Assembly (NCBI GenBank): GCA_001801685.1
Contig: MGYJ01000067.1
Location: 37,164 to 101,163 of the forward strand
Direction: 5' to 3'
Origin: Gammaproteobacteria bacterium RIFCSPHIGHO2_12_FULL_63_22
Lineage (GTDB): Bacteria > Pseudomonadota > Gammaproteobacteria > Xanthomonadales > Xanthomonadaceae
Length of the DNA: 64,000 bases
Part shown: positions 18,149-56,940 of the stretch, one piece after another
How positions within the stretch are numbered: position 1 is the stretch's first letter
How the letters are laid out: each line of letters opens with the position of its first letter
Position numbers and translations under genes: made by a program
Notes under the pieces: generated by a model
The model's input: only the letters and a program-made list of their open reading frames with translations
The model's database searches: none
Told to the model about the DNA's origin: nothing

Positions 18149-18163
18149 AGTAGTTTAACTACA
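18149..18163. promoter_or_regulatory. HexR-like operator candidate A: AGTAGTTTAACTACA
   Basis: Palindrome GTAGTT-T-AACTAC; 42 bp upstream of the GH13 start at 18107. Confidence 0.65.
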
Positions 18164-18188
18164 TAACGAGGGAATGTGCAGGGAGGCC

Positions 18189-18204
18189 ATGAGAACGTTT
18201 ACAT
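18189..18204. promoter_or_regulatory. LacI-type operator candidate ATGAGAACGTTTACAT
   Basis: Within CATGAGAACGTTTACATG palindrome (central ACGT), same promoter region as HexR-like sites A and F. Confidence 0.5.
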
Positions 18205-18270
18205 GGGCTGACCCCACTAAATCAGGGGGCTGGCTCACGGAATCGATAGAAAAAACGGTTTGACAACATA

Positions 18271-18285
18271 TCTAGTTTTAGTACA
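18271..18285. promoter_or_regulatory. HexR-like operator candidate F: TCTAGTTTTAGTACA
   Basis: 13/15 match to TGTARTwwwAYTACA; lies 5 bp downstream of a TTGACA hexamer (18260-18265) upstream of the TonB receptor. Confidence 0.4.
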
Positions 18286-18345
18286 AGCTCGCCACTGAGC
18301 GATGGCTCTAATTTCGGCAGATTTTGCACAACGGGGAGATGTTTC

Positions 18346-21150
18346 GTGGCCACAACCAGCAACAGGCGCACCAGCGCCGGCACCAACCAGACGCTACCGA
18401 GCCGCCACCCGTTGGCCTTGGCCTGCGCCGCGGCTTTCATGATTGCCGCCAGCGCGAGTCATGCGCAGGAAGCAGCCACCGCCACCGCACCGCAGACCGA
18501 GGAAGAGAAGGCCGCAGCCGAAGCTGCGCGCCGTCGCGGCGAGCCGGTGAAGGAACTGGAGACCGTCAAGGTCACCGGTATCCGCCGCGGTATCGAGAAC
18601 GCAATCGAGACCAAGCAGGCTTCGACTTCGATTGTTGAATCCATTTCCTCCGAAGACATCGGCAAGTTGCCCGATGCATCGATCGCTGAATCCATCGCGC
18701 GACTGCCGGGCCTGACCGCCCAGCGCGAGCGCGGCCGCGCCGTGCAGATCAACATCCGTGGTTTCGCCGGCGATTTCGCCGGCACCACGCTCAATGGCCG
18801 CGAGCAGACCACTGCCGGCGACAACCGCGGCGTCGAGTTCGACCAGTACCCCTCGGAACTGCTGAGCTCGGTGGTCGTGTACAAGACCCCGGATGCCTCG
18901 CTGATCGGCCAGGGTCTATCGGGCACGGTGGACATGCGCACCGCGCGCCCGCTCGATTTCGCTGACCGTGTGGTATCGGGCAACTACCGCTTCGACCAGA
19001 ACGAAAGCAACGGCATAAAGACCAACGGCAATCGTTACAGCTTTGCCTATATCGACCAGTTCTCGGACGACCGCGTCGGTATCGCGATCGGTTACGCGCA
19101 CCTCGACAACCCCAACTCCGGCTTCCAGAACGAGTCCTGGGGTTATCCGAGCGGTAGCCTGGCCAGCAACACGGCCGCCGGCGTCATCGGCGGCGGCAAG
19201 GCCTACAAGTTCGACACGAATGTCGAGCGCGACGGCTGGATGGCGACCCTGCAACTGAAGCCTAACGACTTCTACGAGTCGACCCTGGACGTCTTCTATT
19301 CCAAGTTCAAGAAGACCGAAATCAAGACCGGTGTCGAGTTCGGCACCGTCTGGGGCTCACCGGGACTGTCGCCCACCAGCGGTGTCGTCCAGGGCAATAC
19401 CGCCACGACTACGACCTGGACAAACGTCAAGCCGGTCATTCGCTCTGACAGCAATCCGGTCAACGACGAGCAGCTGTCGGTGGGCTGGAACAACAAGTTC
19501 CGTTTCGACAACAACTGGGAAGTCACGGCAGACGCCTCGTACTCCAAGACCAACCACAAATTCCGCGTCCTCGAGACTTATGCGGGACTTGCCGCTGGCG
19601 TCACCAGCGACCTGACGGTTGAATACAATCCATCCGAAGGCCTCAACGACTACTTCTTCTCGGTCGACCTCAACGACCCGACCAACCTGCGCCTGGTGGA
19701 TGCCGGTGGCTGGGGCCAGGACGGCTACGTGAAGGACTTCTCGGTCATCGACAAGCTGACCGCGTTCCGGATCGACGCCGAACGTAGCTTCGACACCGGT
19801 TTCATCAGCAGCATCCAGTTTGGCTACAACCGCAGCGACCGCAGCAAGTCCAAGTACTCCGACGAGCGCAAGCTGTGCATCGTCGCCTGCGCGGGCGGCG
19901 ATTCCGCGCCGTTCCCGGGCTCTGCCGGCGGCTTCGGTTTCTCCGGCATCGACGGCCTGGCGTTCTTCGACGCCAACTCGCTGTTGCAGTCGGGCTTTTA
20001 TAACGAGGTCGCCAAGCTGCACTCGGACATCTCGAACAAGAACTGGAGCGTGGACGAGACCATGGACACGCTGTTCGCACAGGCAAACATCGACACCGAT
20101 ATCGGCGAGATGCCCCTGCGCGGAAACTTCGGCTTCCAGTACGTGATGGTTGACCAGAGCTCGAGCGGATTCAGCACCTTCCAGGGCGATCTGGCGGCCC
20201 CGCCCGAAGAAATCGAAGCCGGCGCGACTTCCGAGGAGTTCCTGCCCAGCTTGAACCTGAGCCTTGAGGTTATCCCCGACGGCTTCGTGCGCTTCGCAGC
20301 AGCCCGGCAGATGGCGCGGCCGCGCATGGACGACATGCGCGCGACCTTCAACCTGCAGATCAACAACTCAGGCTGCGGCAACCTGCCGGGTCCCTTGTAT
20401 TGCGCCAACAGCGGCAATCCCGCACTCGAACCCTGGCTGGCCAATGCCTATGACCTGAGCCTTGAGAAATACTTCACCACCGAAGCCGGCAACAAGGGTT
20501 ACTTCGCAGCCGCATACTTCTTCAAGGACCTGCAGACCTACATCTACAGGCAGGACGTCGAGGTCGACTTCGCCGGACTTGACCTGCCCGCGCCAGGCGG
20601 CGGCGGGACTGCCCCGGCGACGACCGTGGGCATCCTCAACCTGCCCGCGAACGGCGAGGGTGGCACCCTCAAGGGATTGGAGCTGACCGCATCGATTCCG
20701 TTCGACATGTTGTGGGCTCCCCTGAACGGCTTCGGCCTGCAGGCGACCTACTCGGATACCAAGAGCTCGATCTCGCCCAACGGCCCGGGCACCAGCGAGC
20801 CGCTGCCGGGCTTGTCGAAGTACATCTCCAGCGCCACCTTGTATTACGAAAAGTCAGGCTTCTCGGTGCGTTACAGCCAGCGCACGCGCTCGGCCTTCCG
20901 TGCTGAAACGCGCGGCTTCGGTGCCGACCTGTCCTACGTGAACATTCGCGGCGAAAAGGTGCAGGACGCCCAGATCAACTACACCTTCCCGGACAGCTCA
21001 TCGCTCAAGGGACTGGGCCTGTACCTGCAGGTGAGCAACATCGGTGACGAGCCGTTCTCCACCTACGACACCGCCGACCCGGACTACCGCCCGATTACGT
21101 ACTTCGGCTACGGCCGGACCACGCTGCTCGGATTCAGCTACAAGTTCTGA
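18346..21150 (+). CDS. TonB-dependent receptor (TIGR01782-type, carbohydrate; probable maltodextrin)
   Basis: GTG start with GGGGAG upstream; TonB-box-like ETVKVTGIRRGIENAIETKQ; SSEDIGKLPDASIAESIARLPGLTAQRERGRAVQINIRGF; C-terminal TTLLGFSYKF. Confidence 0.92.
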   Translation: MATTSNRRTSAGTNQTLPSRHPLALACAAAFMIAASASHAQEAATATAPQTEEEKAAAEAARRRGEPVKELETVKVTGIRRGIENAIETKQASTSIVESISSEDIGKLPDASIAESIARLPGLTAQRERGRAVQINIRGFAGDFAGTTLNGREQTTAGDNRGVEFDQYPSELLSSVVVYKTPDASLIGQGLSGTVDMRTARPLDFADRVVSGNYRFDQNESNGIKTNGNRYSFAYIDQFSDDRVGIAIGYAHLDNPNSGFQNESWGYPSGSLASNTAAGVIGGGKAYKFDTNVERDGWMATLQLKPNDFYESTLDVFYSKFKKTEIKTGVEFGTVWGSPGLSPTSGVVQGNTATTTTWTNVKPVIRSDSNPVNDEQLSVGWNNKFRFDNNWEVTADASYSKTNHKFRVLETYAGLAAGVTSDLTVEYNPSEGLNDYFFSVDLNDPTNLRLVDAGGWGQDGYVKDFSVIDKLTAFRIDAERSFDTGFISSIQFGYNRSDRSKSKYSDERKLCIVACAGGDSAPFPGSAGGFGFSGIDGLAFFDANSLLQSGFYNEVAKLHSDISNKNWSVDETMDTLFAQANIDTDIGEMPLRGNFGFQYVMVDQSSSGFSTFQGDLAAPPEEIEAGATSEEFLPSLNLSLEVIPDGFVRFAAARQMARPRMDDMRATFNLQINNSGCGNLPGPLYCANSGNPALEPWLANAYDLSLEKYFTTEAGNKGYFAAAYFFKDLQTYIYRQDVEVDFAGLDLPAPGGGGTAPATTVGILNLPANGEGGTLKGLELTASIPFDMLWAPLNGFGLQATYSDTKSSISPNGPGTSEPLPGLSKYISSATLYYEKSGFSVRYSQRTRSAFRAETRGFGADLSYVNIRGEKVQDAQINYTFPDSSSLKGLGLYLQVSNIGDEPFSTYDTADPDYRPITYFGYGRTTLLGFSYKF

Positions 21151-21165
21151 TCAAGCGCTTGACGG

Positions 21166-21202
21166 CCCCTGCCGATCCTCCCCGGATCGGCAGGGGTTTT
21201 TT
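21166..21202 (+). terminator. Rho-independent terminator of the TonB receptor gene
   Basis: 13-bp perfect stem CCCCTGCCGATCC / GGATCGGCAGGGG, 5-nt loop, TTTTTT. Confidence 0.92.
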
Positions 21203-22703: not shown

Positions 22704-22809
22704 TTCAATGCACCGTTCTTTCGCAGAAAACCTCTAGAATCTTAGCATTCCAGACAGGTGGCGCCGTGCAAGTGAACGTGATGAATTCGATGCAAACCGG
22801 GGGCCGCGC

Positions 22810-23781: not shown

Positions 23782-26700
23782 ATGTCATCCAGTTCGCCGC
23801 CGGACGCGCCGGCTTCGCCTGAGCTCGACTCTGCGGAGCCCGTTCCGGGCCTTTGGCGACGGATTTTCGGGCGGCTCGACTGGCAGCCGCCGGGCTGGGT
23901 TCCGGTGGCGGCGGCACGCGTACGAGCCGAACCCCGAAAGTATTTCGGCGGCGTGGCCGCCCTGCTGCTGGTTGGACTGTTTGGCTACTGGCTCGCGACG
24001 CGGCCCGCTCCGGTGCGCCCCGACGCTATCAAGGTCACCGTACAGGCGCCGGCGCTTACCGACTACGCGGCCACGCCGAAGATGGTCGTGCACTCGCTGC
24101 GCATCTATTTCAGCCGGTCGGCCGCCCCTATCAAGGACGTCGGCAATGCGCCCCATGGCCTGGTGATGGAACCGGAACTCGCTGGCGCCTGGGAATGGTC
24201 CGGCGACCGCAGCCTGGTGTTCACTCCAGCCAACGACTGGCCGGTCGGCACCGACTACAAGATCACGTTCGATCCGAAGTCGACCGTCGCTCCGGGCATC
24301 ACTCTGGAAGAAACCGAATTCGAGTTCAGCACCACGCCTTTTTCCGCACGCCTGGGCAGCAGCGAGTTCTACCAGGACCCGCTGGATCCGACACTGAAGA
24401 AAGGCGTGTACCAGCTTGCCTTCTCGCATCCGGTGGATGCAGCTTCGCTGGAAGGAAAGATCAAGCTGAAGTTGAAGGACGGCGCGGCGAAGTCGCTGCC
24501 CGACCCGAGCCATACCATCAGCTACGACGAGCGCCGACTGAAGGCGTGGATCCATTCGCAAGCCTTGCAGATGCCCGAGAACGGCGGCCTGCTGACGATG
24601 GAAGTCGCGCCCGGCATCGTTTCATCCCTGGGCGGCAAGGGCAGCCAGGTCGCGATCAGCGGCCAGGTGGCCCTACCCTCGCTGTATAGCGTCAGCATCG
24701 ATTCGGCCACCTCCACGCTGGTGGACAACGAGCGCTTCGAACCCGAGCAGGTACTGGTGCTGGAGTTCAACAATGCGATGAAGGATGCCGAGGTCGCCGG
24801 CGCGACGCGGGTCTGGCTGTTGCCGGAGAAAAACCCGAAGCTCAAACCCAATCAGCAACGCGGCATCTACCGCTGGGGCGATTCGGAAGTGGACGAATCG
24901 ATCCTGAAATTGTCCGAGCCGGTATCCACCACGTCGATGCCGACCGAACGCGAGTACATCGAGGCGCACAGCCTGAAGTACCGCGCGCCGCCGGGGCGCT
25001 TCATCTACGTGCGCGTGGCGCGCGGCCTGAAATCATTCGGCGGCTTCATCCTGGGCGCGCCGTTCGCGACCGTGCGCGAAGTGCCGGAGTACCCGCAGTT
25101 GCTGCGCTTCCTGGGCGATGGCGCCTTGTTGTCGCTGCAGGGCGAGCGTCGCATCAGCATCGTGTCGCGCAACCTGCCGCGCGCGCGCCTGGAGATCGGT
25201 CGCGTGCTGCCCGAACAATTGCAACACCTGGCTTTCAGCAACTACGGCAGCTACGCGCGCCCGGAACTGGGCGGCGTCGGCGCCGACAGCCTGGTCGAGC
25301 GCGTCGAACAACGATTGACCTTGCCGGCGGACGACCCGGCCAAGGCGCATTACGAGGGCGTGGATCTGGGCAAGTTCCTGGCCGCGGGCCGACGCGGCAT
25401 CTTCATGCTGAGCCTGCGCACGATGAGCGAGTACGACGCGACGCAGACCGCGCAGCAAACCTTGGCGCGCAACGCCGGTGAAGAGAAGGACAGCCGCCTG
25501 GTGGTGCTGACCGACCTCGGCATCATCGTGAAGAAAGCGCTGGACGGCAGCCGCGACGTGTTCGTGCAATCGCTGACGGCCGGCACGCCGGTCGCCGGCG
25601 CGCAGGTGAAGGTGATCGCCCGCAATGGCGAGATGCTGGTGGATGCCAGCACCGACGACGAAGGCCGCGCACGACTTCCCAACCTGGATGGCTTCCAGCG
25701 CGAGAAACAGCCGGTGATGCTGACGGTAGGCAAGGCCGAGGACTTCTCCTTCCTGCCGATGGGCGATGGCGGCCGCACGCTGGATTATTCGCGCTTCGAT
25801 ATCGGCGGCGAGCCCAGCCAGGTCGAGACCGGCACGCTGAAGGCCTTCCTGTTCTCCGACCGCGGCCTGTACCGGCCGGGAGACCGCGTCAACCTGGGCA
25901 TCATCGTCCGCGCCGCCGACTGGAAGCGGCCGCTGAAGGGCCTGCCGCTGGAACTGGTGCTGTCCGATCCGCGTGGCACGGTCGCGCGGCGCGAGCGCAT
26001 CACGCTGAGTGAATCAGGTTTCGAAGCCTTCAACTACACCTCGCAGGAGGCGGCGCCCAGTGGCACCTGGGAAGCGAGCCTGTACCTGATCGGCCGCAAC
26101 GATACCCGCACGATGATCGGCCAGACCTCGGTGCAGGTGCGCGAATTCGCGCCCGACACGATGCGCGTGCGCGCGACGCTGTCCGTGCAGAACGTGCAGG
26201 GTTGGGTGAAGCCCGATGCGCTGTCGGTGACGGTGGCGGCGGAAAACCTGTTCGGCACGCCCGCACAGAAGCGGAAAGTCGAAGGCACGATGGTGTTGCG
26301 ACCGGCCTTCCCGAATTTCCCGGCGTATCCGGACTATCGCTTCTACGATCCAATGCTGGCCAAGGAAGGTTACGACGAACAACTCAGCGACCAGAGCACG
26401 GACGACAAAGGCAATGCCGTGTTCAAGCTGGACCTGTCGAAGTATGCGAAGGCGACGTATCAGCTGAACTTCCTTGCGCGCGCCTTCGAGCCCGGCAGCG
26501 GCCGCAACGTGGCGGCGCAGGCAAGCACGCTGGTCTCCAGCAACGACTTCCTGGTTGGCATCAAGGCGGTGGACGGGCTGGACTACGTCAAGCGCAAGGA
26601 CAAGCGCAGCGTACAACTGCTGGCCATCGGGCCGGACGGCAAGCCGCGCGCGGTGAACGGCCTGCATGCGGTGATCGTGGAAAAGCGCTTCGTGTCGGTG

Positions 26701-29646
26701 CTGACCAAGCAGGATTCGGGCTTGTTCCGGTATGTCTCGCACGAGCGTCGTTATCCGCTGAAGGATACGGCGATCAACCTCGCTGCATCGGCGCAATCGT
26801 TCGCACTGCCGACCGACCAGCCCGGCAACTTCGTCCTGGAAATGCGTTCCGCCGATGGCACGGTGTTGAACCAGGTCGCGTATTCGGTGGCCGGCGCGGC
26901 GAATCTGTCGCGATCGCTGGAACGCAATGCCGAACTGACGCTCAGCCTGTCGAAGCCACGCTACAAGCCGGGCGAGACGATCGAGGTCAGCGTGCGTGCC
27001 CCGTATGCGGGCAGCGGCCTGATCACCATCGAGCGCGACCGCGTGTATGCGCAGGCCTGGTTCCGCGCCGATACCACCAGTTCGGTGCAGAAGATTCGCG
27101 TGCCGGCAGATTTCGAGGGCAACGGCTACGTCAACGTGCAGTTCCTGCGCGACCCGTCGTCGGACGAGATCTTCATGAGCCCGCTGACCTTCGGCGTGGC
27201 GCCGTTCGCGGTGGATCGCGCGGCGCGCACGCAGCCACTGGAGATCAAGCTGCCAGCGGTGGTGCGCCCGGGCGCGCTGATTCCGGTGGACATCAAGACC
27301 CAGGGCAAGGCGCGCGTGGTGGTCTTTGCGGTGGACGAAGGCATCCTGCAGGTCGCGCGCTATCGCGTCGGTGATCCGCTCGATTTCTTCTTCACCAAGA
27401 AGATGCTTCAGGTCGATACCGCACAGATCCTCGACCTGTTGTTGCCGGAATTCAGCCGACTGGCCGCGATGGCGGCACCCGGCGGCGACGGTGGCGGCGA
27501 CCTGGCCAAAAATCTCAATCCGTTCAAGCGCAAATCCGAGAAGCCTGCGGTCTGGTGGTCGGGAATCATTGACGTGGATGGCAGCAAGAAGGTGAACTTC
27601 CGCCTGCCCGATCACTTCAACGGCCGCATTCGCGTGACTGCCGTCGCGGTGACAGCTGATCGGTTGGGCACTACCGAGACACAGGCCACTGTGCGCGGCG
27701 ACTTCGTGTTGACGCCGACGGTGCCGACGCATGTCGCGCCGGGCGATGAATTCGAGTTGCCGGTTGGCATTGCGAACACGATCGAAGGCGCTCGCACGGC
27801 CAGCCTCGTGAATGCGACGCTGGAGCTGCCGCCGTCGCTGACCCTGGTAGGCGCTGCACCGGCGCCCTTGTCGATCGCTCCCGGCAGCGAAGGCACGGTG
27901 CGCTTCCGCGTGCGTGCCGGCAGCGCGTTGGGCGCGGTGGCCGTGGTGATCCGGGCGAAGTCCGGCACGTATTCGGCGCAACGTCGCATCGAAGTGTCGC
28001 TGCGTCCGGGCATCGTGGCGCGGCAGGACTTGCGCGCCGGGCATGCCGAACAACGCGTGATCCTGGAAAGACTGCGGGTGATGTACAACCCGCTGTCCAC
28101 GCGCCAGCTGGCGGCTTCGAGTTCGCCGCTGGTGGCCATTGACGGGCTGACGGCCTACCTGCGCGATTATCCGCACCTGTGTACCGAGCAGTTGCTGAGC
28201 CAGGCAATGCCGGCGCTGGTGTATTCATCGCGGCCCGAGCTGGGGCACAAGGTGGATCGCAATACCGGCGACCGCGGCAACCTGATCGACGTGCTGCGTT
28301 CGCGGCAGAACAGCGAAGGCGGCCTCGGCTCGTGGACGGCGATGCCGGATGCGGATCCCTTCGTCACGGCTTACGCTGCGTTGTACATGCTGGAATCGCG
28401 CGAGCGCGGCATCGCCGTGCCCGAAGACATGCTGAATTCGCTGAACGCTTACCTGGAAACACTGGCCGCCGACGCATCCCGCAACGACCTGCCTTTCCTG
28501 CGCCAGCGCGCGATGGCGGTGTACTTGCTGATTCGCCAGGGGCGCACGGCCAGCAACCTGCTGAGCGCGGTGCAGGAACAACTCAAGCGCGACCAGCCCA
28601 AGGCCTGGCAGGACGATGCCGCCGGCATGCTGGTGGCGGCGAGTTACCAGCTGCTGCAACAGGACAAGGCCGCGCGGCCACTGGCCGTAAAAGGCCTGAC
28701 CCGCGTGAATACGTCGACCGCGACAACGGTCAGTTCCGATTACCACTACTACTACGACGGTGGCATCGAGCAGGCCTGGACGCTGTACCTCTTGAACCGC
28801 CACTTCCCCTCACTTGCGCGGCAGGTGAAGCCGGTGGCGCTGGATAAGCTGATGGCTCCACTGCGAGAGAACAGTTACAACACCTTGTCGTCGGCGCTGA
28901 CGGTGCTCGCGCTGGATGCGCAAGCAGGTGCGTTGGGCAATCCCCCGCCGCCGACCTTGCAGGCCGCCGGCAAGCAGGGGCAAGGTCGGCAGATCGGCAA
29001 GGTGCGAGGGGTGGTGACCGTGGGCAACTTCACTGCGGCCGATACCCGGCTATGGGTTACCCCTGCCAGTGCCGAACCGGTCTGGTATGTGTTGAACCAG
29101 AGCGGCTACGACCGACAGGCGCCTGCCACCACGCAGAACCAGGGACTGGAAGTGATCCGCGATTACCTGGACAACCAGGGCAAGCCGATCACCACGCTGA
29201 CGCTGGGCCAGGAAGTGACCGTGCGCCTGCGGGTGCGTGCGCTCGGCGCGAAGGCGCGCGGACAGATCGCGATCGTGGATCTGCTGCCGGGTGGTTTCGA
29301 AGCCGTGCTGCAATCGTCTGCAGCAGCGAAACCTGCAGCGCCAGCGGGCGAAGAAGACTACGAGGGCGACTACGAAGACCAGCACGAGGACTACACGCCC
29401 AGCGTGTTGCCGCTCGCCCTGCCCGGCTCGAACTACCTGCCCGAGCACATCGAGATGCGCGAGGATCGCGTCGTGTTCTACGGTAGCGCCGTGGAGGCGG
29501 TCGCCGAGTTCAAGTACAAGCTGCGCGCCAACAATGCGGGCCTGTTCGTGGTGCCGCCGATCTACGCCGAGTCGATGTACCAGCGCTCGGTATATGCGCA
29601 GGGCGGACCGGCGGGCAGCCTGCGGGTGAACGCGCCCTCGCCATGA
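23782..29646 (+). CDS. Bacterial alpha-2-macroglobulin family protein (YfhM-like)
   Basis: 1954 aa; MG domains; YPHLCTEQLLSQAMPAL thioester (CxEQ) motif; immediately upstream of pbpC. Confidence 0.93.
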   Translation: MSSSSPPDAPASPELDSAEPVPGLWRRIFGRLDWQPPGWVPVAAARVRAEPRKYFGGVAALLLVGLFGYWLATRPAPVRPDAIKVTVQAPALTDYAATPKMVVHSLRIYFSRSAAPIKDVGNAPHGLVMEPELAGAWEWSGDRSLVFTPANDWPVGTDYKITFDPKSTVAPGITLEETEFEFSTTPFSARLGSSEFYQDPLDPTLKKGVYQLAFSHPVDAASLEGKIKLKLKDGAAKSLPDPSHTISYDERRLKAWIHSQALQMPENGGLLTMEVAPGIVSSLGGKGSQVAISGQVALPSLYSVSIDSATSTLVDNERFEPEQVLVLEFNNAMKDAEVAGATRVWLLPEKNPKLKPNQQRGIYRWGDSEVDESILKLSEPVSTTSMPTEREYIEAHSLKYRAPPGRFIYVRVARGLKSFGGFILGAPFATVREVPEYPQLLRFLGDGALLSLQGERRISIVSRNLPRARLEIGRVLPEQLQHLAFSNYGSYARPELGGVGADSLVERVEQRLTLPADDPAKAHYEGVDLGKFLAAGRRGIFMLSLRTMSEYDATQTAQQTLARNAGEEKDSRLVVLTDLGIIVKKALDGSRDVFVQSLTAGTPVAGAQVKVIARNGEMLVDASTDDEGRARLPNLDGFQREKQPVMLTVGKAEDFSFLPMGDGGRTLDYSRFDIGGEPSQVETGTLKAFLFSDRGLYRPGDRVNLGIIVRAADWKRPLKGLPLELVLSDPRGTVARRERITLSESGFEAFNYTSQEAAPSGTWEASLYLIGRNDTRTMIGQTSVQVREFAPDTMRVRATLSVQNVQGWVKPDALSVTVAAENLFGTPAQKRKVEGTMVLRPAFPNFPAYPDYRFYDPMLAKEGYDEQLSDQSTDDKGNAVFKLDLSKYAKATYQLNFLARAFEPGSGRNVAAQASTLVSSNDFLVGIKAVDGLDYVKRKDKRSVQLLAIGPDGKPRAVNGLHAVIVEKRFVSVLTKQDSGLFRYVSHERRYPLKDTAINLAASAQSFALPTDQPGNFVLEMRSADGTVLNQVAYSVAGAANLSRSLERNAELTLSLSKPRYKPGETIEVSVRAPYAGSGLITIERDRVYAQAWFRADTTSSVQKIRVPADFEGNGYVNVQFLRDPSSDEIFMSPLTFGVAPFAVDRAARTQPLEIKLPAVVRPGALIPVDIKTQGKARVVVFAVDEGILQVARYRVGDPLDFFFTKKMLQVDTAQILDLLLPEFSRLAAMAAPGGDGGGDLAKNLNPFKRKSEKPAVWWSGIIDVDGSKKVNFRLPDHFNGRIRVTAVAVTADRLGTTETQATVRGDFVLTPTVPTHVAPGDEFELPVGIANTIEGARTASLVNATLELPPSLTLVGAAPAPLSIAPGSEGTVRFRVRAGSALGAVAVVIRAKSGTYSAQRRIEVSLRPGIVARQDLRAGHAEQRVILERLRVMYNPLSTRQLAASSSPLVAIDGLTAYLRDYPHLCTEQLLSQAMPALVYSSRPELGHKVDRNTGDRGNLIDVLRSRQNSEGGLGSWTAMPDADPFVTAYAALYMLESRERGIAVPEDMLNSLNAYLETLAADASRNDLPFLRQRAMAVYLLIRQGRTASNLLSAVQEQLKRDQPKAWQDDAAGMLVAASYQLLQQDKAARPLAVKGLTRVNTSTATTVSSDYHYYYDGGIEQAWTLYLLNRHFPSLARQVKPVALDKLMAPLRENSYNTLSSALTVLALDAQAGALGNPPPPTLQAAGKQGQGRQIGKVRGVVTVGNFTAADTRLWVTPASAEPVWYVLNQSGYDRQAPATTQNQGLEVIRDYLDNQGKPITTLTLGQEVTVRLRVRALGAKARGQIAIVDLLPGGFEAVLQSSAAAKPAAPAGEEDYEGDYEDQHEDYTPSVLPLALPGSNYLPEHIEMREDRVVFYGSAVEAVAEFKYKLRANNAGLFVVPPIYAESMYQRSVYAQGGPAGSLRVNAPSP

Positions 29647-36127: not shown

Positions 36128-36134
36128 TGCTTTC

Positions 36135-37754: not shown

Positions 37755-37788
37755 GGGTGCTCCTGCCTGATCCTGGGCCATGCCGCGC

Positions 37789-38679
37789 TCAGCCCTTTAC
37801 GCCGCCTGCGGTAAGGCCGGAAACGATCCAGCGCTGCGCCGCCAGGAATACCAGCGTGATCGGCAAACCCGACAGCACGGCCGCCGCCGCGAAATCGCCC
37901 CACAGGTATTTCTGTTCGTACAGGTAGTACTTCGAACCCACGGCGAGGGTGAGGTTGTTCTCCTCGCGCAGCAGCACGGAAGCCACCGGATATTCGATGA
38001 TCGTGCCGATGAAGGCGAGCAGGAATACCACCATCAGGATCGGCACCGCCATCGGCAGCAACACGTGCCGGAACGCCTGCCAATGGGTGGCGCCATCGAC
38101 CTTGGCGCATTCCTCGATCTCGACCGGGATGGTTTCGAAATAACCGCGGATCGTCCAGATATGCATGGCCACGCCGCCGAGGTAGGCCAGGATCAATCCT
38201 GCATGGGTTTCGATGCCGAGCCACGGCACGTACGCGCCGATGGTGTCGAAAATCGCATAGATGGCAACGAGTGCAAGTACTGCGGGGAACATCTGCAACA
38301 ACAACATTGAATTGAGGATGCCGGCCTTGAAGCGGAAACGCAGCCGCGCGAATGCATACGCGGCGGTGGTCGAGATGGCGACGATCAGCAAGGCCGAGAT
38401 GCCGGCGATCTTGATCGAGTTGAACAACCAGCGCAGCACCGGGAACGGCGGGACGACCAGGCTGCCGTCGGCGCCTTGGTAGGAGATGCCGAGCGCCAGC
38501 TTCCAGTGTTCCAGGCTGATGGTGTCGGGAATGAGCGAGCCGGTGGAAAAATTGCCCGGTCGCAGCGAAATCGACACCACGGCCAACAGCGGGAAGATGG
38601 TGATCGCAATCAGCGCGATCAATCCAATATGCGCGGCAATCAGCCGCCAGCGCTGGCTGCGTCCGGTAACGATGGCCAT
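37789..38679 (-). CDS. malG: Maltose/maltodextrin ABC transporter permease MalG
   Basis: [30 protein letters not shown] loop; 296 aa; MalF downstream on the same strand. Confidence 0.92.
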
Positions 38680-40260: not shown

Positions 40261-40270
40261 GCGTGCCTGC

Positions 40271-42622: not shown

Positions 42623-42637
42623 TGTAGTTTAACGACA
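42623..42637. promoter_or_regulatory. HexR-like operator candidate B: TGTAGTTTAACGACA
   Basis: Within ATGTAGTTTAACGACAT palindrome, 26 bp upstream of the malK start. Confidence 0.65.
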
Positions 42638-42719: not shown

Positions 42720-42734
42720 CGTAATTTAACTACA
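42720..42734. promoter_or_regulatory. HexR-like operator candidate C: CGTAATTTAACTACA
   Basis: 14/15 match to TGTARTwwwAYTACA upstream of glgP. Confidence 0.65.
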
Positions 42735-45322: not shown

Positions 45323-47515
45323 TTGATTGACGAGGCCCAGGTTCTCGCCCTGATCGGCGGCCAGCATGCCGATCCCTTTGCCGTGCTCGGCATGCATGCG
45401 GCGAGCGACGGCCGACTATGGGTACGCGCCTTGTTGCCCGGCGCGAATTCGGTCGTGGTGCAGGATGCGCGCACCGGCGCGGCGCTGGTCGACTTGAAGC
45501 GTCGCCACGCGGACGGATTTTTCGAAGCCGCGATTCCGCGTCGGCGCAAGCCCTTCGACTATCGCCTGGGCGTAAGCTGGCAGCATGGCCACGAGCAGGT
45601 ACTCGCCGACGCTTACGCGTTCGGCCCGCAACTTTCCGATGCCGACCTGCTGGCCCTGCATGAAGGCCGGCATGCGCGCGCCTACCTCGTGCTCGGCGCG
45701 CATCCGCTTCGGCAGCACGATGTGGACGGCGTTCGCTTTGCGTTATGGGCGCCCAACGCGAGACGCGCCAGCGTGGTCGGCGACTTCAACGGCTGGGATG
45801 GCCGACGCCATCCGATGCGGCTTCGCCACCTGGCGGGCGTGTGGGAAATTTTCATACCGCATGCCGGCATCGGCGACCGCTACAAGTTCGAATTGATCGG
45901 TCCGGACGGCAGCCTGCTGCCACTGAAATCCGACCCCTATGCGTTTTTTGCGGAGCTGCGCCCGGACACGGCCAGTCGCGTGGCGACATTGCCGAACGCG
46001 GCACCACTTTCTTCGGAACGCGCCCGTGCCAATGCACGCGCTGCGCCGGTATCCATCTACGAGGTGCATCCGGGATCCTGGCGTCGCGGCGCAGGCGCGT
46101 TCCCCACCTGGGACGAATTGGCCGCGACCTTGCCTGCGCATGCCTCAGACCTCGGCTTCACGCATGTGGAACTGATGCCGGTAAGCGAACATCCCTTCGA
46201 TGGGTCCTGGGGTTACCAGACGCTGGGCTTGTACGCGACCAGCGCGCGATTCGGGCCGCCGGAGGGCTTCGCGCGCTTCGTTGCAGCCTGCCACGCGCGC
46301 GGCTTGGGCGTGTTGCTGGACTGGGTGCCCGCGCATTTCCCATCGGACGCACACGGACTGGCGATGTTCGACGGCACTGCCCTGTACGAATACGCCGACC
46401 CGCGCGAAGGTTTCCATCGCGACTGGAACACGCTGATCTTCAACTTCGGTCGCCGCGAGGTTCGCGATTTCCTGGCCGGCAACGCGCTGTACTGGCTGGA
46501 ACGCCACGGCGTGGACGGCCTGCGCGTGGATGCGGTGGCATCGATGCTCTATCGCGATTATTCACGCCCGGCCGGCGAGTGGATTCCGAATGCGCACGGC
46601 GGCCGCGAAAATCTTGAAGCAATTTCCTTGCTTCGCCGCGTGAATGAAACCGTCGGCAGCGCCACGCCCGGCGCCATCACGGTGGCGGAAGAGTCCACGG
46701 CATTCCCGGGTGTGTCCGCGCCAACCAGCGTGGGCGGGCTGGGCTTCCACTACAAATGGAACATGGGCTGGATGAACGACACGCTGCATTACATGCGCGA
46801 GGACCCCATCCACCGGCGCTGGCACCACGACAAGATGAGCTTCGGCCTGGTCTATGCCTTCAGCGAAAATTTCGTGCTGCCCCTGTCGCATGACGAAGTG
46901 GTGCACGGCAAGGGTTCGCTGCTGGGCAAGATGCCTGGCGACGCCTGGCAGCGTTTCGCCAACCTGCGTGCGTACTACGGCTTCATGTGGGGGCATCCGG
47001 GCAAGAAGCTGTTGTTCATGGGCCAGGAATTCGCCCAGCCCGACGAATGGAACCACGATGCCGAACTGCCCTGGTCGCTGCTGGACAGTGCGCCGCATGC
47101 GGGCGTGCAGTCGCTGGTGCGAGACCTCAATCATCTGTATCGCGACGTGCCGGCGCTGCATGCGCTCGATTGCGAGGCCGCCGGCTTTGAATGGCTGGTG
47201 TCGGACGATGCCGAAAATTCTGTGTTCGCGTGGGCGCGGCACGATGGCCTCGGCGGCATGGCGCTGGTGGTGAGCAACTTCACGCCGGAGCCGCGCCGCG
47301 CCTATCGCCTGGGCGTGCCAGGCGGCGCCGGCCATTGGCGCGTCGCCCTGGACAGCGACGACGTGCGCTATGGCGGCAGCGGCATGATTGCGCCATCGGC
47401 AGGCCTGGGCGGCCATGCCCGCCTTCACGCGCAAGACATCCCCTGCCACGGCCGCGGCCACTCGCTCTTGCTCGACCTGCCGCCGCTGGCGACGATATTC
47501 CTGTTACCCGCCTGA
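45323..47515 (+). CDS. glgB: 1,4-alpha-glucan branching enzyme
   Basis: [11 protein letters not shown]-type (IYEVHPGSW), [43 protein letters not shown]. Confidence 0.95.
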
Positions 47516-47525
47516 GCCCCGCCGA

Positions 47526-49655
47526 ATGATCGAGACCAAACCGATGCAGGAAGGACGCCACGAGCCGATGGGCGCTTGCGCGCGCGATGGCGGCGTCAAC
47601 TTCGCGGTGTTTTCGCAACATGCCGAGCGCATCGAGGTCTGCGTGTTTGATGCCGAGGGCCGCGCTGAATTGTCGCGGCATCGGCTGCATGGCCCGCATG
47701 ATTCCGTCTTCCATGGCTTCCTTCCCGATGCGGGGCCCGGGCTGGTCTACGGCTTGCGCGCGCATGGTCCGTATCGGCCTGAAGCCGGCCACTTGTTCAA
47801 TCCGCACAAGCTCCTGCTCGACCCGTACGCGCGCGAGATCGTCGGCAAGTTCCAGTGGCAGCCCATCAACCACGGTTACACCCTGGGCGATGCGCATGGC
47901 ATCCGCACCCCCGATCCGCGCGACAACGCCGGCATCGCGCTGAAGGCACGGGTCGCGCAACCGGACAGCCCAGCGCCGGGCTGGTTCAATGCGCCGCGGC
48001 ATCGCGATGCCGACGTCGTTCTGTACGAAGTGCATGTGAAAGGATTTTCCAAAGCGCTGCCTGGCGTTCCCGAAGATTTGCGCGGCACCTATGCGGGCCT
48101 GGCGCATCCGGCGGCGATCGCCCACTTCAAATCGCTGGGAGTGACAACGCTTTCGCTGTTGCCGGTGCAGTACTGCGTGGATGAGGGCCACCTGGCCGAA
48201 CGCGGCCTGGTCAATTACTGGGGCTACAACACGCTGGGTTTCTTCTGCCCGGATCCGCGGCTCGCGCAGCAGCCGAGCGACCCGACCGCCGTCATCGCCG
48301 AATTCCGCCGGATGGTGGACGAGTTGCACCGGCACGGCCTGGAAGTGGTGCTGGACGTGGTCTATAACCACACTCCCGAGGGCAGTGAACTCGGCCCGAC
48401 CCTGAGCTTCCGCGGGCTGGACCACGCCAGCTGGTATCGGCTGATGCACGAAGATCGCAGCCGCTGCGAAAACCTGACTGGCTGCGGTAACACCTTGAAT
48501 GTTTCGCATCCCAAGGTCAGCCAGTTCGTGCTCGACTCCTTGCGCTATTGGGTGCGCGAGATGGGCGTGGATGGATTCCGCTTCGACCTGGCGCCGGTGC
48601 TCGGCCGTACCAGCCATGGCTTCGATCCCTGCGCGCCGTTCTTCCATGCGCTGCGACAGGATCCGATCCTGGCCCGCGCGCGACTGATCGCCGAGCCCTG
48701 GGACGCCGGTCCGCAGGGTTACCAGGTCGGGCGATTCCCCGGTCGTTTCCAGGACTGGAACGACAAATTCCGCGATGCGGTACGTGGCTACTGGCTGCGC
48801 CAGGGCGTGGACCGCGGCGCATTCGCACGGCGCTTCACCGCCTCCGACGATTTGTTCCACCAGCGCAGCCCGCAGGCTTCGGTCAACTTCATCAGCGTGC
48901 ACGACGGCTTCACGCTGGCCGACCTGACCAGCTATTCGCGCAAGCACAACCTGGCCAATGGCGAGAACAACCACGACGGCCGCGACGACGAGCTGTGCGG
49001 AAATTTTGGAGCAGAAGGCAAGTCCAGCGACCCCGAGATCCTCGAACGCCGCCGTCGGGTTCGCCGCGCGATGATGGCCACGCTGCTGCTGGCGCAGGGC
49101 ACGCCGATGCTGTGCGCCGGTGATGAAATTGGCAACAGCCAGCAGGGCAACAACAACGCCTACTGCCAGGACAACCCGACCGCGTGGCTGGACTGGGAAC
49201 ACGCCGACCACGATTTCCAGGCCTTCGTCGCGCGGCTGATTGCCTTGCGCCGCAGCGAGCCGCTGCTGCACCACGACCGCTGGTTCGCTTCCAGCGCCGA
49301 GCCCCAGCGCGCCTCGGTGCATTGGCAATTGCCCAATGCCGGCGAGATCCACATCCAGGACTGGCACGACGTGCACGCGCATGCGCTCGCCTGCGTGGTG
49401 TCGCCGCCGACGGACACGGCATCGCACGCGCATGCGCTGATGCTGTTGTTCAATCCCGACCCCGAGGAGGCAAGCTTTGCGCTCGCTCCCGGCAGCTGGA
49501 CGCTGTTGCTCGACTCCGGCAGCACCTTGCCCAACGAAGGCGCATCCTTGTCCGGCTGGGCGCGGGTTCCTGCGCGATCGCTGCTGGTACTTCGGCAAGC
49601 GAAAGGCCACAAGGCTCGCCCACCCTCCCATTCTTCAGACGAAGCACGCCCATGA
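47526..49655 (+). CDS. glgX: Glycogen debranching enzyme GlgX
   Basis: GWFNAPRHRDADVVLYEVHVKGFSK, NYWGYNTLGFF, GVDGFRFDLAPVLGR, LIAEPWDAG, VHDGFTLADL. Confidence 0.95.
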   Translation: MIETKPMQEGRHEPMGACARDGGVNFAVFSQHAERIEVCVFDAEGRAELSRHRLHGPHDSVFHGFLPDAGPGLVYGLRAHGPYRPEAGHLFNPHKLLLDPYAREIVGKFQWQPINHGYTLGDAHGIRTPDPRDNAGIALKARVAQPDSPAPGWFNAPRHRDADVVLYEVHVKGFSKALPGVPEDLRGTYAGLAHPAAIAHFKSLGVTTLSLLPVQYCVDEGHLAERGLVNYWGYNTLGFFCPDPRLAQQPSDPTAVIAEFRRMVDELHRHGLEVVLDVVYNHTPEGSELGPTLSFRGLDHASWYRLMHEDRSRCENLTGCGNTLNVSHPKVSQFVLDSLRYWVREMGVDGFRFDLAPVLGRTSHGFDPCAPFFHALRQDPILARARLIAEPWDAGPQGYQVGRFPGRFQDWNDKFRDAVRGYWLRQGVDRGAFARRFTASDDLFHQRSPQASVNFISVHDGFTLADLTSYSRKHNLANGENNHDGRDDELCGNFGAEGKSSDPEILERRRRVRRAMMATLLLAQGTPMLCAGDEIGNSQQGNNNAYCQDNPTAWLDWEHADHDFQAFVARLIALRRSEPLLHHDRWFASSAEPQRASVHWQLPNAGEIHIQDWHDVHAHALACVVSPPTDTASHAHALMLLFNPDPEEASFALAPGSWTLLLDSGSTLPNEGASLSGWARVPARSLLVLRQAKGHKARPPSHSSDEARP

Positions 49656-51160
49656 AACTCGACCAACGACGCTCCGGCGTCCTGCTGCACATCACTTCCC
49701 TGCCCGGCCCCTACGGCATCGGCGATTTCGGGCCTGCCGCCTATCAATACGTGGACTGGCTGGCCGCCGCCGGCCAACGCGTGTGGCAGGTATTGCCGAC
49801 GACGCCGGTCGGACCCTGCGATTCGCCCTACCAGAGCGTGTCGGCCTTCGCCGGCAGCCCGTTGATGGTCGCGCTGGAACCCCTGATCGAAAACGGCTGG
49901 TTGCCGGCGCCGGAACTCAGCGCCGCGTTGTTCGACAGCAAGCGTGTTGACTACGGCCGCGTCATTCCCTGGCGCACGCGACAGCTGCGCCTTGCCGCCG
50001 CTGGCTTCTTCGCGCGCGCCAGCGAGGCGCAGCGTTCCGAGTTCGAATTATGGCGGCAGGTGCAGGCCTATTGGCTGGCCGACTATTCCCTGTTCATGGC
50101 GCTGGAGTCCGCGCATGGCGGCAAGCCGTTCTGGGAATGGGATGCACCGCTTCGATCGCGCGAGCCGACCGCCCTGGAAGCGGCGCGAGGACAGCATGCC
50201 GGCGAAATCGCGTTCTGGGATTTCGTGCAATGGTGTTTCGACACGCAATGCGCGGCCTTGCGTGCCTATGCCGCTTCGCGCGACGTGGCGATACTGGGTG
50301 ACTTGCCGATCTTCATCGCGCACCACAGCGCCGATTGCTGGGCGCGCCCGGACTTGTATTACCTGGATGAGAATTTCCAGCCGACCGTGGTCGCCGGCGT
50401 GCCGCCTGATTCGATGGGTCCCTTGGGACAGCGCTGGGGCAATCCCCTGTATCGCTGGGAACGAATGGCCGCGGAGAATTTTTCCTGGTGGACCGCCCGC
50501 GTGAAGCGCGCGCTGGAACAGGCCGACATCCTGCGCATCGACCACTTCCGCGGCTTCGCCGGCTACTGGGAAATTCCCGCCAGTTGTCCCACCGCTATCG
50601 AAGGACGCTGGGTACCGGCGCCGGGCAAGGAATTGTTCGCGGCCATCGCGCTGGCGCTGGGCGAATTGCCGATCGTCGCCGAGGACCTGGGCTTGATCAC
50701 GCCGGACGTGATCGAGCTGCGTGATGGTTGCGGCTTCCCGGGCATGCGCATCCTGCAGTTTGGATTCGGCGGCGATGGCGACCACGAATTCCTGCCGCAC
50801 AGCTACAGCCGCGAAACCGTCGCCTACACCGGTACGCACGACAACGAGACCGTACGCGGCTGGTGGCAGAACGCGCCCGCGCACGAACGTCATTTCGCCG
50901 AAACGTATTTGAACGCATCCGGCGAGGATTGCCATTGGCGGATGATCCAGGCCGCCTGCAATTCGGTCGCCTGCATGGCGATCTTCCAGATGCAGGACGT
51001 GCTGGGCCTCGATGGCAGCCATCGCATGAATTTACCCGGCACCACGATCGGTAATTGGTCATGGCGCTTCGAGTGGTCGATGGTCGGACCCGAACATGCG
51101 CAGACACTGGGCCGGATCTCGGCTGCGAGTGGGCGCGGTCCGTTCGGCCTGATCGGCTAG
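49652..51160 (+). CDS. malQ: 4-alpha-glucanotransferase (GH77)
   Basis: RRSGVLLHITSLPGPYGIGDFG, DNEFQPTVVAGVPPD-type loop, LRIDHFRGF, VAEDLGLITPDV; ATGA overlap with glgX. Confidence 0.95.
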   Translation: MKLDQRRSGVLLHITSLPGPYGIGDFGPAAYQYVDWLAAAGQRVWQVLPTTPVGPCDSPYQSVSAFAGSPLMVALEPLIENGWLPAPELSAALFDSKRVDYGRVIPWRTRQLRLAAAGFFARASEAQRSEFELWRQVQAYWLADYSLFMALESAHGGKPFWEWDAPLRSREPTALEAARGQHAGEIAFWDFVQWCFDTQCAALRAYAASRDVAILGDLPIFIAHHSADCWARPDLYYLDENFQPTVVAGVPPDSMGPLGQRWGNPLYRWERMAAENFSWWTARVKRALEQADILRIDHFRGFAGYWEIPASCPTAIEGRWVPAPGKELFAAIALALGELPIVAEDLGLITPDVIELRDGCGFPGMRILQFGFGGDGDHEFLPHSYSRETVAYTGTHDNETVRGWWQNAPAHERHFAETYLNASGEDCHWRMIQAACNSVACMAIFQMQDVLGLDGSHRMNLPGTTIGNWSWRFEWSMVGPEHAQTLGRISAASGRGPFGLIG

Positions 51161-51172
51161 CGGCAAGCACGC

Positions 51173-53573: not shown

Positions 53574-53598
53574 ACACTATGGGGCAACGAGGATATCG

Positions 53599-54459: not shown

Positions 54460-55190
54460 GCACGCCGCTTCCCGCCATCGGCTTCAATCCCCGGCCGCGC
54501 ATCGAGATGCTGCGCTTCAATGCGCAGTCATCGTGCCTGGTGGTGGATGACGCCCTGCTCGATCCCGATGCATTGCGCCGATACGCCACGGCGCGGCGCG
54601 GCGATTTCGTGCAGGCGCCGTTCAACGCCTATCCGGGCATTGAGTTGCCGATGCCGCTGGAATTTTCTGCGCGACTTCAGGATTTTTTCGACCGGCACAT
54701 CCGCGGCTCCCTTGGCGGTCGTCGTACCGTCAAGATGAACTCGCGATTGGCCATGGTGACCACGCCATCCGACGCGCTCGAACCGAGGCAGCGCATCTGC
54801 CATCGCGACAGCGCGTGGATCGACCCAGCCCAAGCCATTGCCGCGTCGGTGCTGTACCTGTTCGAGGATGAATGCCTGGGCGGAACCAGCTTCTACCGCC
54901 CCCGCCTGCCGGAGGATGCAATCAATCGGCTCGTCCACGATTCAAGCGTGATGGACCGCGCCAGCTTCGACGCCCGGCATCCTTCGATCGCGCAAGGTTA
55001 CATGGGCGAGTCGAATGATTATTTCGAGCGCATCGGACGAGTGCCCGCGCGCTGGAACCGGATGATCTTCTACGACGGCCGCCTGTTCCACAGTGGCGAG
55101 GTGGGGAACGCCCGGGCGCTGACCGGCGACCCGCGCGCGGGCAGGCTGACCTTGAATGGATTCTTTACCTGTTCACGGCCTGCTGGCTGA
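54456..55190 (+). CDS. DUF6445-like / putative 2OG-Fe(II) oxygenase-fold protein
   Basis: HRD (HxD) ... SFYRPRLPED ... MIFYDGRLFHSG ... GRLTLNGFF pattern; ATGA overlap with upstream esterase. Confidence 0.65.
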   Translation: MSTPLPAIGFNPRPRIEMLRFNAQSSCLVVDDALLDPDALRRYATARRGDFVQAPFNAYPGIELPMPLEFSARLQDFFDRHIRGSLGGRRTVKMNSRLAMVTTPSDALEPRQRICHRDSAWIDPAQAIAASVLYLFEDECLGGTSFYRPRLPEDAINRLVHDSSVMDRASFDARHPSIAQGYMGESNDYFERIGRVPARWNRMIFYDGRLFHSGEVGNARALTGDPRAGRLTLNGFFTCSRPAG

Positions 55191-56807
55191 TTCGATCCAC
55201 ACCTGCACCGACTGCGCAGGCAACTCGAGCCCGTGCCGGCCCTTGGCGTCGGCGGTCCACGACGTGCCATCGGTTTTCGGGAATACCGGTTTCCATGGCT
55301 TGACGCCGATCCCGCGCAACTTGAATCGGGCTGGCTTGTCGCCGTAGTTGATCAGCACCAGGGCGGTTTCGCCATTGAAATGGCGGCGGAAGGCAATCGC
55401 CTTGCCTTGCACCGATGGCGCGTCGTAACTGCCGCGCGACAAGGACGGATAACTATTGCGCAAGGCCAGCAGCGCGCGATACCAGGCGAGGATGCCATCG
55501 CTGCGCGCCTGCTCGGCAGCTACGTTCTGGGTTGATGCATTGGCCGACACCGGGCGGAACGGCGTCGCGGTACTGAAGCCGGCGGTCTTCGGCTCGGCCG
55601 TCCAGCTCATCGGAATTCGCAGCTTGGGATCGTGTTTCAATTCCGCCGCCGCGGCCATGCCGATTTCTTCGCCATAAAAAATGAAAGGCGTACCCGGTTG
55701 CAGCAGATAGCCGGCCGCCGCGAGGCGCTGCCTGGCGACATCGCCCTTGAGCTGGTCCCATAGTCGGTCGCCGGCAAAGCTGTCGTGATTGGAAATCATG
55801 GTCGCCATCTGCTGCGGCGCACCGAGGAAATAATCGGCGACGCGGCGGATGTGCTTGACCTCGCCCCGGGCCGCGCCAACGATGTCGCCCGCACGCCAGA
55901 TCGCGAAGGCGCTGCCGCAGACGTCTGACGCTGCATATTTGTGCATGTTGCCGGTGGCCTCGCAGACCACGTAGCGATGCGAATATCCGTCCACCACCGC
56001 GCGGAACTGGTCCATCAGCCCATGGTCTTCCGGCTGGTCGTACCAGGCATCGGGGCCGTGCTCGACCAAGTGCGGCACGGCATCGAAACGAAATCCGTCC
56101 ACGCCGCGATTCAACCAGAAGCGAAGATTGTCCTTGTGGAAGGCAACCACGGCCGGTTCGAGCAGGTTGAAGTCCGGCATGTTCTTGTTGAACTGCGCCA
56201 GGTAGGAACCATTGGGCGTGGCCTCCCAGGGATTGCGGTCGTAGATGCTCCAACCGGCCGGCCCGGGACTCTTCCACATGTACCAATTGCGCAAGGGGCT
56301 GCCGGGCGAGCGCGCCGACTCGAGAAAGACCGGATTGTCCGCGGCGCTGTGGTTGATGACGTAATCGATGATGACGCCGAGGCCGCGCGCGTGCGCCTGG
56401 CGAAGCAGTTCATCGAAATCGGCCAGCGTGCCGTAGGCCGGTTCGATGTCCCGATAGTCGCTGACCGAATAGCCATGGTCGCGGTCCTGGCTGGGGCTGA
56501 TCGGCATCAGCCAGATGCCGCGCACGCCCAAAGCTTTCAGGTAGTCGAGCGACTGGGTCAGTCCGCGCAGGTCACCGATGCCGTCGCCATTGCTGTCGCG
56601 ATAGCCGCGCACGAAGATTTCCGCGAAGGCGCCCTTGTGCCAGCCCTCGGGCAGCGTGCTGGCCGTGTTGCCCACCGGCACCGGGGCCACGGCCCTCTGC
56701 ACGGCCGGCTCCAGGGCTGGGTTGGCGGCTTGGGATGCCAAGGACCAAGGCAGCAGCACCAGAGCCAGTCCGAGTCGCCGCGCCAGGTTCAGCTTCGGGT
56801 GGGTCAT
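55173..56807 (-). CDS. Secreted GH13 alpha-amylase/alpha-glucosidase family protein
   Basis: Signal peptide; GVIIDYVINHSA, GVDGFRFDAVPHLVEHG, VVCEATGN, MISNHDSF; 544 aa. Confidence 0.9.
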   Translation of the reverse strand: MTHPKLNLARRLGLALVLLPWSLASQAANPALEPAVQRAVAPVPVGNTASTLPEGWHKGAFAEIFVRGYRDSNGDGIGDLRGLTQSLDYLKALGVRGIWLMPISPSQDRDHGYSVSDYRDIEPAYGTLADFDELLRQAHARGLGVIIDYVINHSAADNPVFLESARSPGSPLRNWYMWKSPGPAGWSIYDRNPWEATPNGSYLAQFNKNMPDFNLLEPAVVAFHKDNLRFWLNRGVDGFRFDAVPHLVEHGPDAWYDQPEDHGLMDQFRAVVDGYSHRYVVCEATGNMHKYAASDVCGSAFAIWRAGDIVGAARGEVKHIRRVADYFLGAPQQMATMISNHDSFAGDRLWDQLKGDVARQRLAAAGYLLQPGTPFIFYGEEIGMAAAAELKHDPKLRIPMSWTAEPKTAGFSTATPFRPVSANASTQNVAAEQARSDGILAWYRALLALRNSYPSLSRGSYDAPSVQGKAIAFRRHFNGETALVLINYGDKPARFKLRGIGVKPWKPVFPKTDGTSWTADAKGRHGLELPAQSVQVWIESASRP

Positions 56808-56839
56808 GCGAACCTCTCGGGGCCGTCACCGACCCGCCA

Positions 56840-56854
56840 TGTAGATAAACTACG
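56840..56854. promoter_or_regulatory. HexR-like operator candidate D: TGTAGATAAACTACG
   Basis: 13/15 match; 33 bp upstream of the GH13 start at 56807. Confidence 0.55.
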
Positions 56855-56925
56855 GTAGCCCATGTGCCATAGGCTGTAAATCGTGCCCGCCGGGGAGAGC
56901 TAAGGGCCTCGTTCGCGGCCGCGTT

Positions 56926-56940
56926 TGTAGTAAAGTTACT
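56926..56940. promoter_or_regulatory. HexR-like operator candidate E: TGTAGTAAAGTTACT
   Basis: 13/15 match; upstream of the pullulanase-zwf-glk-pgl-edd operon. Confidence 0.5.

Follow-up and report, generated by a model that had tools for sequence, protein, structure and literature searches.

A Glucokinase-RpiR Fusion and Six HexR-Type Palindromes in a Putative Maltodextrin/Entner-Doudoroff Regulon of Apparent Burkholderiales Origin

Gene Organization of the Locus

The window analyzed here is a 64-kb stretch (contig C67:37164-101163) of the 4.26-Mb draft genome of Gammaproteobacteria bacterium RIFCSPHIGHO2_12_FULL_63_22, and on the right it stops where the contig stops. It carries genes for maltodextrin use and the Entner-Doudoroff (ED) pathway, a gene for a 640-amino-acid glucokinase-RpiR fusion, and six short palindromes in three divergent promoter regions, which are almost certainly, judging from comparative data, the operators of this HexR-like fusion. 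The fusion gene (13534-15456, minus strand), the proposed regulator, encodes a Glk domain (residues 11-319), an HTH_6 domain (333-403), and a SIS domain (455-582). A GH13 gene with Glucodextran_C (15504-18131) lies 5' of it on the same strand, and faces a TonB-dependent receptor gene, here called TonB1 (18346-21150, plus; TIGR01782), across the first divergent region.

From the second region, malK (41476-42597; start deduced from the sequence) leads a series of minus-strand genes identified by domain searches, namely a malE-like solute-binding protein gene (40271-41479), malF (38692-40506), malG (37789-38679), a GH13 gene (36135-37781), an MFS sugar transporter gene (34499-36259), and a GH13 gene with an N-terminal extension (32058-34502). 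On the plus strand, glgP (42827-45280) is followed by glgB (45323-47515), a glgX-like gene (CBM48 + GH13; 47388-49655), and malQ (GH77; 49184-51160). The coordinates of malF, the MFS gene, and malQ are those of open reading frames (ORFs) whose real starts are internal. The third region separates another GH13 gene (55173-56807, minus) from a plus-strand operon of pullulanase (56988-59777; TIGR02103), zwf (59778-61238), a stand-alone glk (61094-62242; real start internal), pgl (62239-62973), and edd (62970-64000; start approximate), the last of which is cut by the contig end. In the congener G018, this operon runs past edd into a 221-amino-acid ORF (eda) resembling 2-keto-3-deoxy-6-phosphogluconate (KDPG) aldolase.

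Position and Rarity of the Palindromes

The putative operators, to which no strand is assigned, are numbered from left to right. Operators 1 (18149-18163, AGTAGTTTAACTACA) and 2 (18271-18285, TCTAGTTTTAGTACA) lie ~42 bp 5' of the GH13 gene with Glucodextran_C and ~60 bp 5' of the TonB receptor gene, respectively; operators 3 (42623-42637, TGTAGTTTAACGACA) and 4 (42720-42734, CGTAATTTAACTACA) lie ~25 bp 5' of malK and ~93 bp 5' of glgP; and operators 5 (56840-56854, TGTAGATAAACTACG) and 6 (56926-56940, TGTAGTAAAGTTACT) lie ~33 bp 5' of the third-region GH13 gene (GH13_c) and ~48 bp 5' of the pullulanase-zwf-glk-pgl-edd operon. Measured to the likely starts, the distance from palindrome to downstream gene is thus about 25-93 bp. 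A preliminary description of this DNA had reported the six 15-mers as near-matches to TGTARTWWWAYTACA paired in divergent promoters, and had named the surrounding genes. The 15-mers were found where it placed them, with 1, 2, 1, 1, 2, and 2 mismatches in order; they form three pairs, with members 86-122 bp apart, in regions of roughly 180-240 bp each; and Pfam/NCBIfam domain searches bore out the gene identities. Its assignment of the motif to the HexR type also stands, with the qualification that the sites are nearer to TGTAGT-N3-ACTACA, as in the 15-bp site of RccR (PMC5489143), than to the classical TGTAAT form.

When up to three mismatches to TGTARTWWWAYTACA were allowed on both strands of the 64 kb, these six were the only matches (0.40 expected; maximum of 3 over 100 shuffles), and all six fall inside ~550 bp of intergenic DNA rather than being spread through coding sequence. 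A pattern search of the whole genome at up to two mismatches returned nine places, six of which are the window palindromes. The other three, at which the ORFs were named by eye from their translations, are a LexA-like box AGTAGTATTACTACT adjoining cinA/lexA/recA-like ORFs, a match located between two divergent ORFs, one of them TetR-like, and a match directly 5' of uvrA. A looser pattern, KGTAGYNNNRCTACM with one mismatch, was uninformative in this GC-rich genome (48 matches vs 570 in the control). The LexA-like box TTAGTAGTATTACTACTAA (G000 C78:16304; L140 4305) and the HexR-type motif have GTAGT-N3-ACTAC in common, and the two motifs might conceivably cross-talk.

The stretch from the TonB1/halogenase genes to the mal operon also carries genes for a bacterial alpha-2-macroglobulin and, next to it, a penicillin-binding protein (transglycosylase/transpeptidase/BiPBP_C; 23782-32024), and this pair has no HexR-type site.

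The Motif Derived Independently in Burkholderiales

With the fusion protein as query, 80 relatives were collected, nearly all from Burkholderiales/Betaproteobacteria. Gapped palindromes were then enumerated de novo in a non-redundant set of 74 Burkholderiales promoters (330 bp around the fusion-gene start in each), the window being excluded. The top palindrome was TGTAG-N5-CTACA, present in 52 of the 74 promoters, against at most 14 for any word in shuffled sets. A matrix made solely from these Burkholderiales sites was run on the window, where the six palindromes took ranks 1-6 (23.0, 18.7, 17.4, 17.4, 16.7, and 13.3), operator 1 scoring best, and rank 7 dropped to 9.6; maxima in 20 shuffles of the window were 6.7-15.8.

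The same matrix, applied up to 350 bp upstream of genes in the Burkholderiales loci, found a site before TonB1 in 52/52 promoters, before the solo glk divergent from the fusion gene in 48/48, before the fusion gene itself in 71% of 73, and before the GH13/Glucodextran_C gene in 68% of 22. Control genes in these loci had none (0/28 at Trp-halogenase and 0/14 at MatE), and the random background was 5.8%. Among Burkholderiales genomes showing the GH13//pullulanase and glgP promoters, some have sites there, and two further genomes have an exact motif match in front of glgP-glgB-glgX. The sites are kept in orthologous promoters across orders, and the core of the regulon, judging from this pattern of targets, is therefore maltodextrin/glycogen use plus glucokinase. 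No motif was found within 1.5 kb of the Burkholderia-type fusions, which is not evidence against the motif because the promoter of their operon may be farther upstream.

Co-occurrence of Fusion and Sites within the Genus

We searched 26 congeners for the fusion and the sites. The full-length fusion was found in G018 (82% identity) and was absent from the 25 others. G018 has all six sites at promoters matching those of the window, plus one more before the OMP4 receptor gene, and in pairwise alignment the palindromes stand out as conserved blocks within diverged intergenic spacers. Operators 3 and 5 are identical in G018, operators 1, 4, and 6 are kept as CGTAGTTTAACTACA, CGTAATTAAACTACA, and TGTAGTAAAGTTACG, respectively, and operator 2 is kept together with its flanking TTTGACA. 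At up to one mismatch, 22 of the 25 fusion-less congeners have no site, and the remaining three have one site each, of different sequence. Within the genus, the regulator and the sites come and go together. A search for malK among relatives was crowded by other ATPases of the ATP-binding cassette (ABC) type, the sole standout being again that of G018 (83%).

The promoter of the OMP4 receptor gene carries a HexR-type palindrome in G018 (L169, C85:3683) and a LacI box in the window (12356), an apparent regulator swap between the promoters of orthologs.

The Protein That Binds the Sites

The fusion has RpiR HTH_6 and SIS domains above the Pfam cut-offs (73.3 and 53.0 bits), and its recognition helix VSQPTVIRFCRSLGC is of the HexR type, being near that of RccR (VSEPTIVRFCRAIGC) and identical to that of Neisseria HexR at most positions. 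It scores 224 bits with the NCBIfam HexR model NF008451, under the cut-off of 296. An odd palindrome, in its TGTAGT-N3-ACTACA variant, is found at the target promoters, and the link to the ED pathway is seen in the presence of operator 6 5' of pulA-zwf-glk-pgl-edd, which is kept in G018. RccR was shown to bind TGTAGTAAAACTACA and TGTAGTTTTACTACT in vitro by surface plasmon resonance and footprinting (PMC5489143). HexR is described as an established glucose regulator of Neisseria in PMC6957213, citing Antunes 2015, and the Burkholderiales matrix places paired top sites (18.4 and 16.4) between edd and zwf in Neisseria. Top sites were also obtained at a stand-alone HexR//zwf-pgl-edd in G039, which belongs to the same order as the host. 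The E. coli zwf//hexR region, taken as a positive control, scored weakly (7.6) with this betaproteobacterial matrix. On these comparative data, the earlier proposal that one HexR-like regulator would join outer-membrane uptake, amylases/pullulanase, the ABC transporter, phosphorolysis, and the ED genes is supported. The outcomes that the preliminary description had listed as refuting it came out in its favor, in that the sites avoid coding DNA, orthologous promoters keep them, and the competing LacI protein has a box of its own.

HexR of Pseudomonas, Shewanella, and Neisseria resembles the fusion in having RpiR HTH and SIS domains with a near-identical recognition helix, in its TGTA(A/G)T-N3-A(C/T)TACA palindrome, in zwf/pgl/glk/edd targets, and in having sites in divergent promoters. 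Unlike HexR, the window protein is fused to a glucokinase, its regulon consists mostly of maltodextrin/starch uptake and breakdown, and its KDPG-contact residues are replaced. RccR of Pseudomonas (a KDPG sensor; PDB 8K3B) shares the 15-bp TGTAGT-N3-ACTACA site and 42-43% identity in the HTH and SIS domains. However, it acts on aceEF, the glyoxylate shunt, and gluconeogenesis, which differ from the predicted targets of the fusion, and also uses 28-bp sites; no TGTAGT-N16-ACTACA site of this type was found in the 64-kb window, and the RccR pocket residues S139, H148, H164, and S188 are not conserved in the window fusion. The domain order and nearly the full length are shared with the regulator/glucokinase PRK14101/NF010701 of Burkholderiales (8-589 aligned to 18-599 of 638), but the score of 793.9 bits is under the curated equivalog cut-off of 920, and relatives above that cut-off (L186-L188) keep S139, where the window clade has Y/F.

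Several observations weigh against assigning the sites to the fusion as its repressor operators. The genome count of nine places at up to two mismatches hardly differs from the eight for a reversed control pattern, so that the case for operators rests on placement and conservation rather than on number. The weakest site, 18271 (13.3), falls inside the shuffled-window maxima by score alone; we keep it because of its position and because its reverse complement TGTACTAAAACTAGA matches an asymmetric element, TGTAYYAAAACWAGA, equally placed before Burkholderiales TonB1 receptor genes. The motif alone cannot name its protein, since its half-site is shared with other RpiR proteins, and the fusion is named as the binder because of its co-occurrence with the sites. 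The G018 contig that carries the six sites is not the one that holds most of the fusion gene, although its end bears a fragment of the fusion start. Finally, a strict sigma-70 scanner called no promoter in any of the three divergent regions, which leaves the sign of regulation on weak evidence.

RpiR paralogs have half-sites in common (PMC5489143), so it could be argued that the sites belong to another RpiR protein of the genome (C61:68436), or to a HexR/RccR that escaped notice, and that the fusion is merely a kinase. We consider this very unlikely: no more than two RpiR HTH domains in the own genome exceed the cut-off, and the second, that of C61:68436, is weak (34.6 bits), is 31% identical to that of the fusion, and lacks the RFCR recognition helix, the best matrix site in its 5-kb stretch scores only 9.1, and the sites are gained and lost together with the fusion inside the genus. 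An even less likely binder is the LacI-family regulator next door (12402-13424), acting as MalR. LacI proteins often govern maltose genes, this one belongs to the same cluster, and one LacI box (18190-18203) between operators 1 and 2 makes co-regulation of that promoter possible. MalR regulators control maltodextrin genes, as is proposed for the fusion, whereas protein family and DNA box differ; the box of this LacI protein is a CG-centred even palindrome, TGAAAACGGTTACA, which is found at one of the three divergent promoters (18190) but is missing at 42.6 and 56.9 kb, and a LacI relative is rare in the Burkholderiales loci (one among the loci listed), though nearly all of them carry the palindromes. 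Least likely of all, the six could be SOS boxes of LexA or AT-rich sequences that are palindromic by chance. The same pattern does pick up the LexA-like box at C78:16304 with its common core, but the TTA/TAA flanks of that box occur on both sides in none of the six, no site lies at an SOS gene, and the concentration of all six in so little intergenic DNA, like their conservation across orders, speaks against chance.

The TGAAAACGGTTACA box occurs at 225-238 (before GH1), 12356-12369 (before an outer-membrane protein/PF10091 glycoamylase/ABC operon), 13463-13476 (the lacI promoter), and 18190-18203 (TonB1//GH13). These boxes probably define a second, small regulon of the LacI protein, which is perhaps a beta-glucan regulator, and the TonB1//GH13 promoter may be under both regulators.

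In two Burkholderiales metagenome-assembled genomes (MAGs), a stand-alone HexR accompanies the fusion (L060, 4583-4702; L083, 3658-3800), and their hexR//edd promoters carry the variant palindromes TGTAGATTATCAACA and TGTAGAAAATCTACA, possibly a paralog-specific motif. Directly upstream of a divergent Glk-RpiR fusion gene in G621 (L208, 1225-1403) are three palindromes of the TGTAAT type, the classical HexR form.

Origin of the Locus

The Glk-RpiR fusion family is present in many Burkholderiales genomes. The fusion was absent from the other searched genomes of the host's family and order, and a class-wide search of 369 genomes, with an unspecified share of Burkholderiales, found it in the own genome alone. 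After that of G018 (82%), a Rhodoferax MAG protein shares 78% identity with the fusion, and part of malG aligns to Burkholderiales copies at up to 91% identity. In the RpiR tree, the window protein pairs closely with that of G018, and the nearest neighbors outside the genus are Rhodoferax-like fusions; because of its long branches and midpoint rooting, the tree was used only for this pairing and this nearness. On the simplest reading, the regulator and its operators appear to have been acquired together, horizontally, from Burkholderiales. Two Burkholderiales genomes (G488 and G701; L191/L192) have two Glk-RpiR fusions each, ~15 kb apart or less.

Proposed Mechanism

Taken as a whole, the best explanation of the locus, and one in which we have high confidence, is that the palindromes are operators of the Glk-RpiR fusion, that the fusion would repress the maltodextrin and ED genes and be released by a sugar-phosphate, and that the block was probably acquired as such. 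The analysis shows the sites with their specificity and conservation, their co-occurrence with the fusion, and a motif derived independently; that the fusion binds this DNA, that it represses and does not activate, and what its effector is are inferred. A dimer of the HexR-type HTH domain of the fusion would bind the TGTAGT-N3-ACTACA-like sites, one per promoter, in the three divergent regions. When maltodextrin-derived glucose is missing, the bound fusion would repress outer-membrane uptake, the amylases, MalKEFG, maltodextrin phosphorolysis, and zwf-glk-pgl-edd(-eda), as well as its own gene within the GH13-glk-rpiR unit. Incoming maltodextrin would raise hexose-phosphate, and the SIS domain would bind the sugar-phosphate and thereby release the fusion from DNA.

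A putative promoter of the TonB receptor gene consists of TTGACA (18260-18265) and TACAAG (18282-18287) with a spacing of 16, and operator 2 sits within the spacer and overlaps the putative -10 element, which suits repression by promoter occlusion. This promoter was not called by the strict scanner because its -10 element ends in a base other than T. The Glk domain keeps the residues matching Asn99, Asp100, Glu157, His160, and Glu187 of E. coli Glk; with these catalytic residues intact, the fusion is predicted to be enzyme and repressor at once.

The Effector Pocket

KDPG is the textbook effector candidate for HexR. In RccR, nine residues contact KDPG (PMC10810197). By RccR numbering, all 81 fusions of the maltodextrin clade have Y/F in place of S139, F/Y/L in place of H148, and R/Q/K in place of H164, and 77/81 have V/L/I in place of S188. 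The contacts R152 (80/81) and S183 (81/81) are kept, and K270 is apparently lost, the C-terminal alignment being less certain. S139 is kept by the stand-alone HexR proteins of Neisseria, E. coli, G039, L060, and L083, and by the three fusions of Burkholderia type that score above the curated cut-off. H148 and H164 are not kept in E. coli HexR either, and position 139 is A, C, or D in some other fusions, which indicates that pocket drift extends beyond this clade.

Because the KDPG pocket is remodeled, KDPG as the inducer, implied by the HexR label, seems doubtful in the fusion clade, and the safest reading of the pocket residues is that KDPG sensing cannot be assumed for this fusion. Another phosphosugar, possibly glucose-6-phosphate from its own kinase domain, would be at least as likely an effector.

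Significance

The protein family, the domain fusion, and the HexR-type motif are already known. In the open-access literature searched, we found no description of the maltodextrin/TonB regulon, the operator co-transfer, or the remodeled pocket (an earlier RegPrecise/Leyn 2011 prediction is possible), and no experimental study of the role of the fusion in maltodextrin use. The putative horizontal acquisition from Burkholderiales and the replaced KDPG residues go beyond the preliminary description. A glucokinase-repressor fusion is here tied to a coherent polysaccharide-utilization regulon with a precise and testable set of predicted operators, and offers an example of a regulator that has apparently been transferred horizontally while keeping its operators.

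The replaced residues also call into question the routine view that HexR-like proteins answer to KDPG. Tentatively, and with somewhat less than even confidence, we propose that the maltodextrin Glk-HexR fusions may be a subfamily that has moved past KDPG sensing, with a remodeled SIS pocket (S139 replaced by Y/F within a GH[Y/F]G motif, H148F, H164R) reading another phosphosugar, perhaps glucose-6-phosphate that the Glk domain of the fusion itself provides. If this is true, the fusion would sense, in a single protein, the flux of maltodextrin-derived glucose, and would spread between orders along with its operators.

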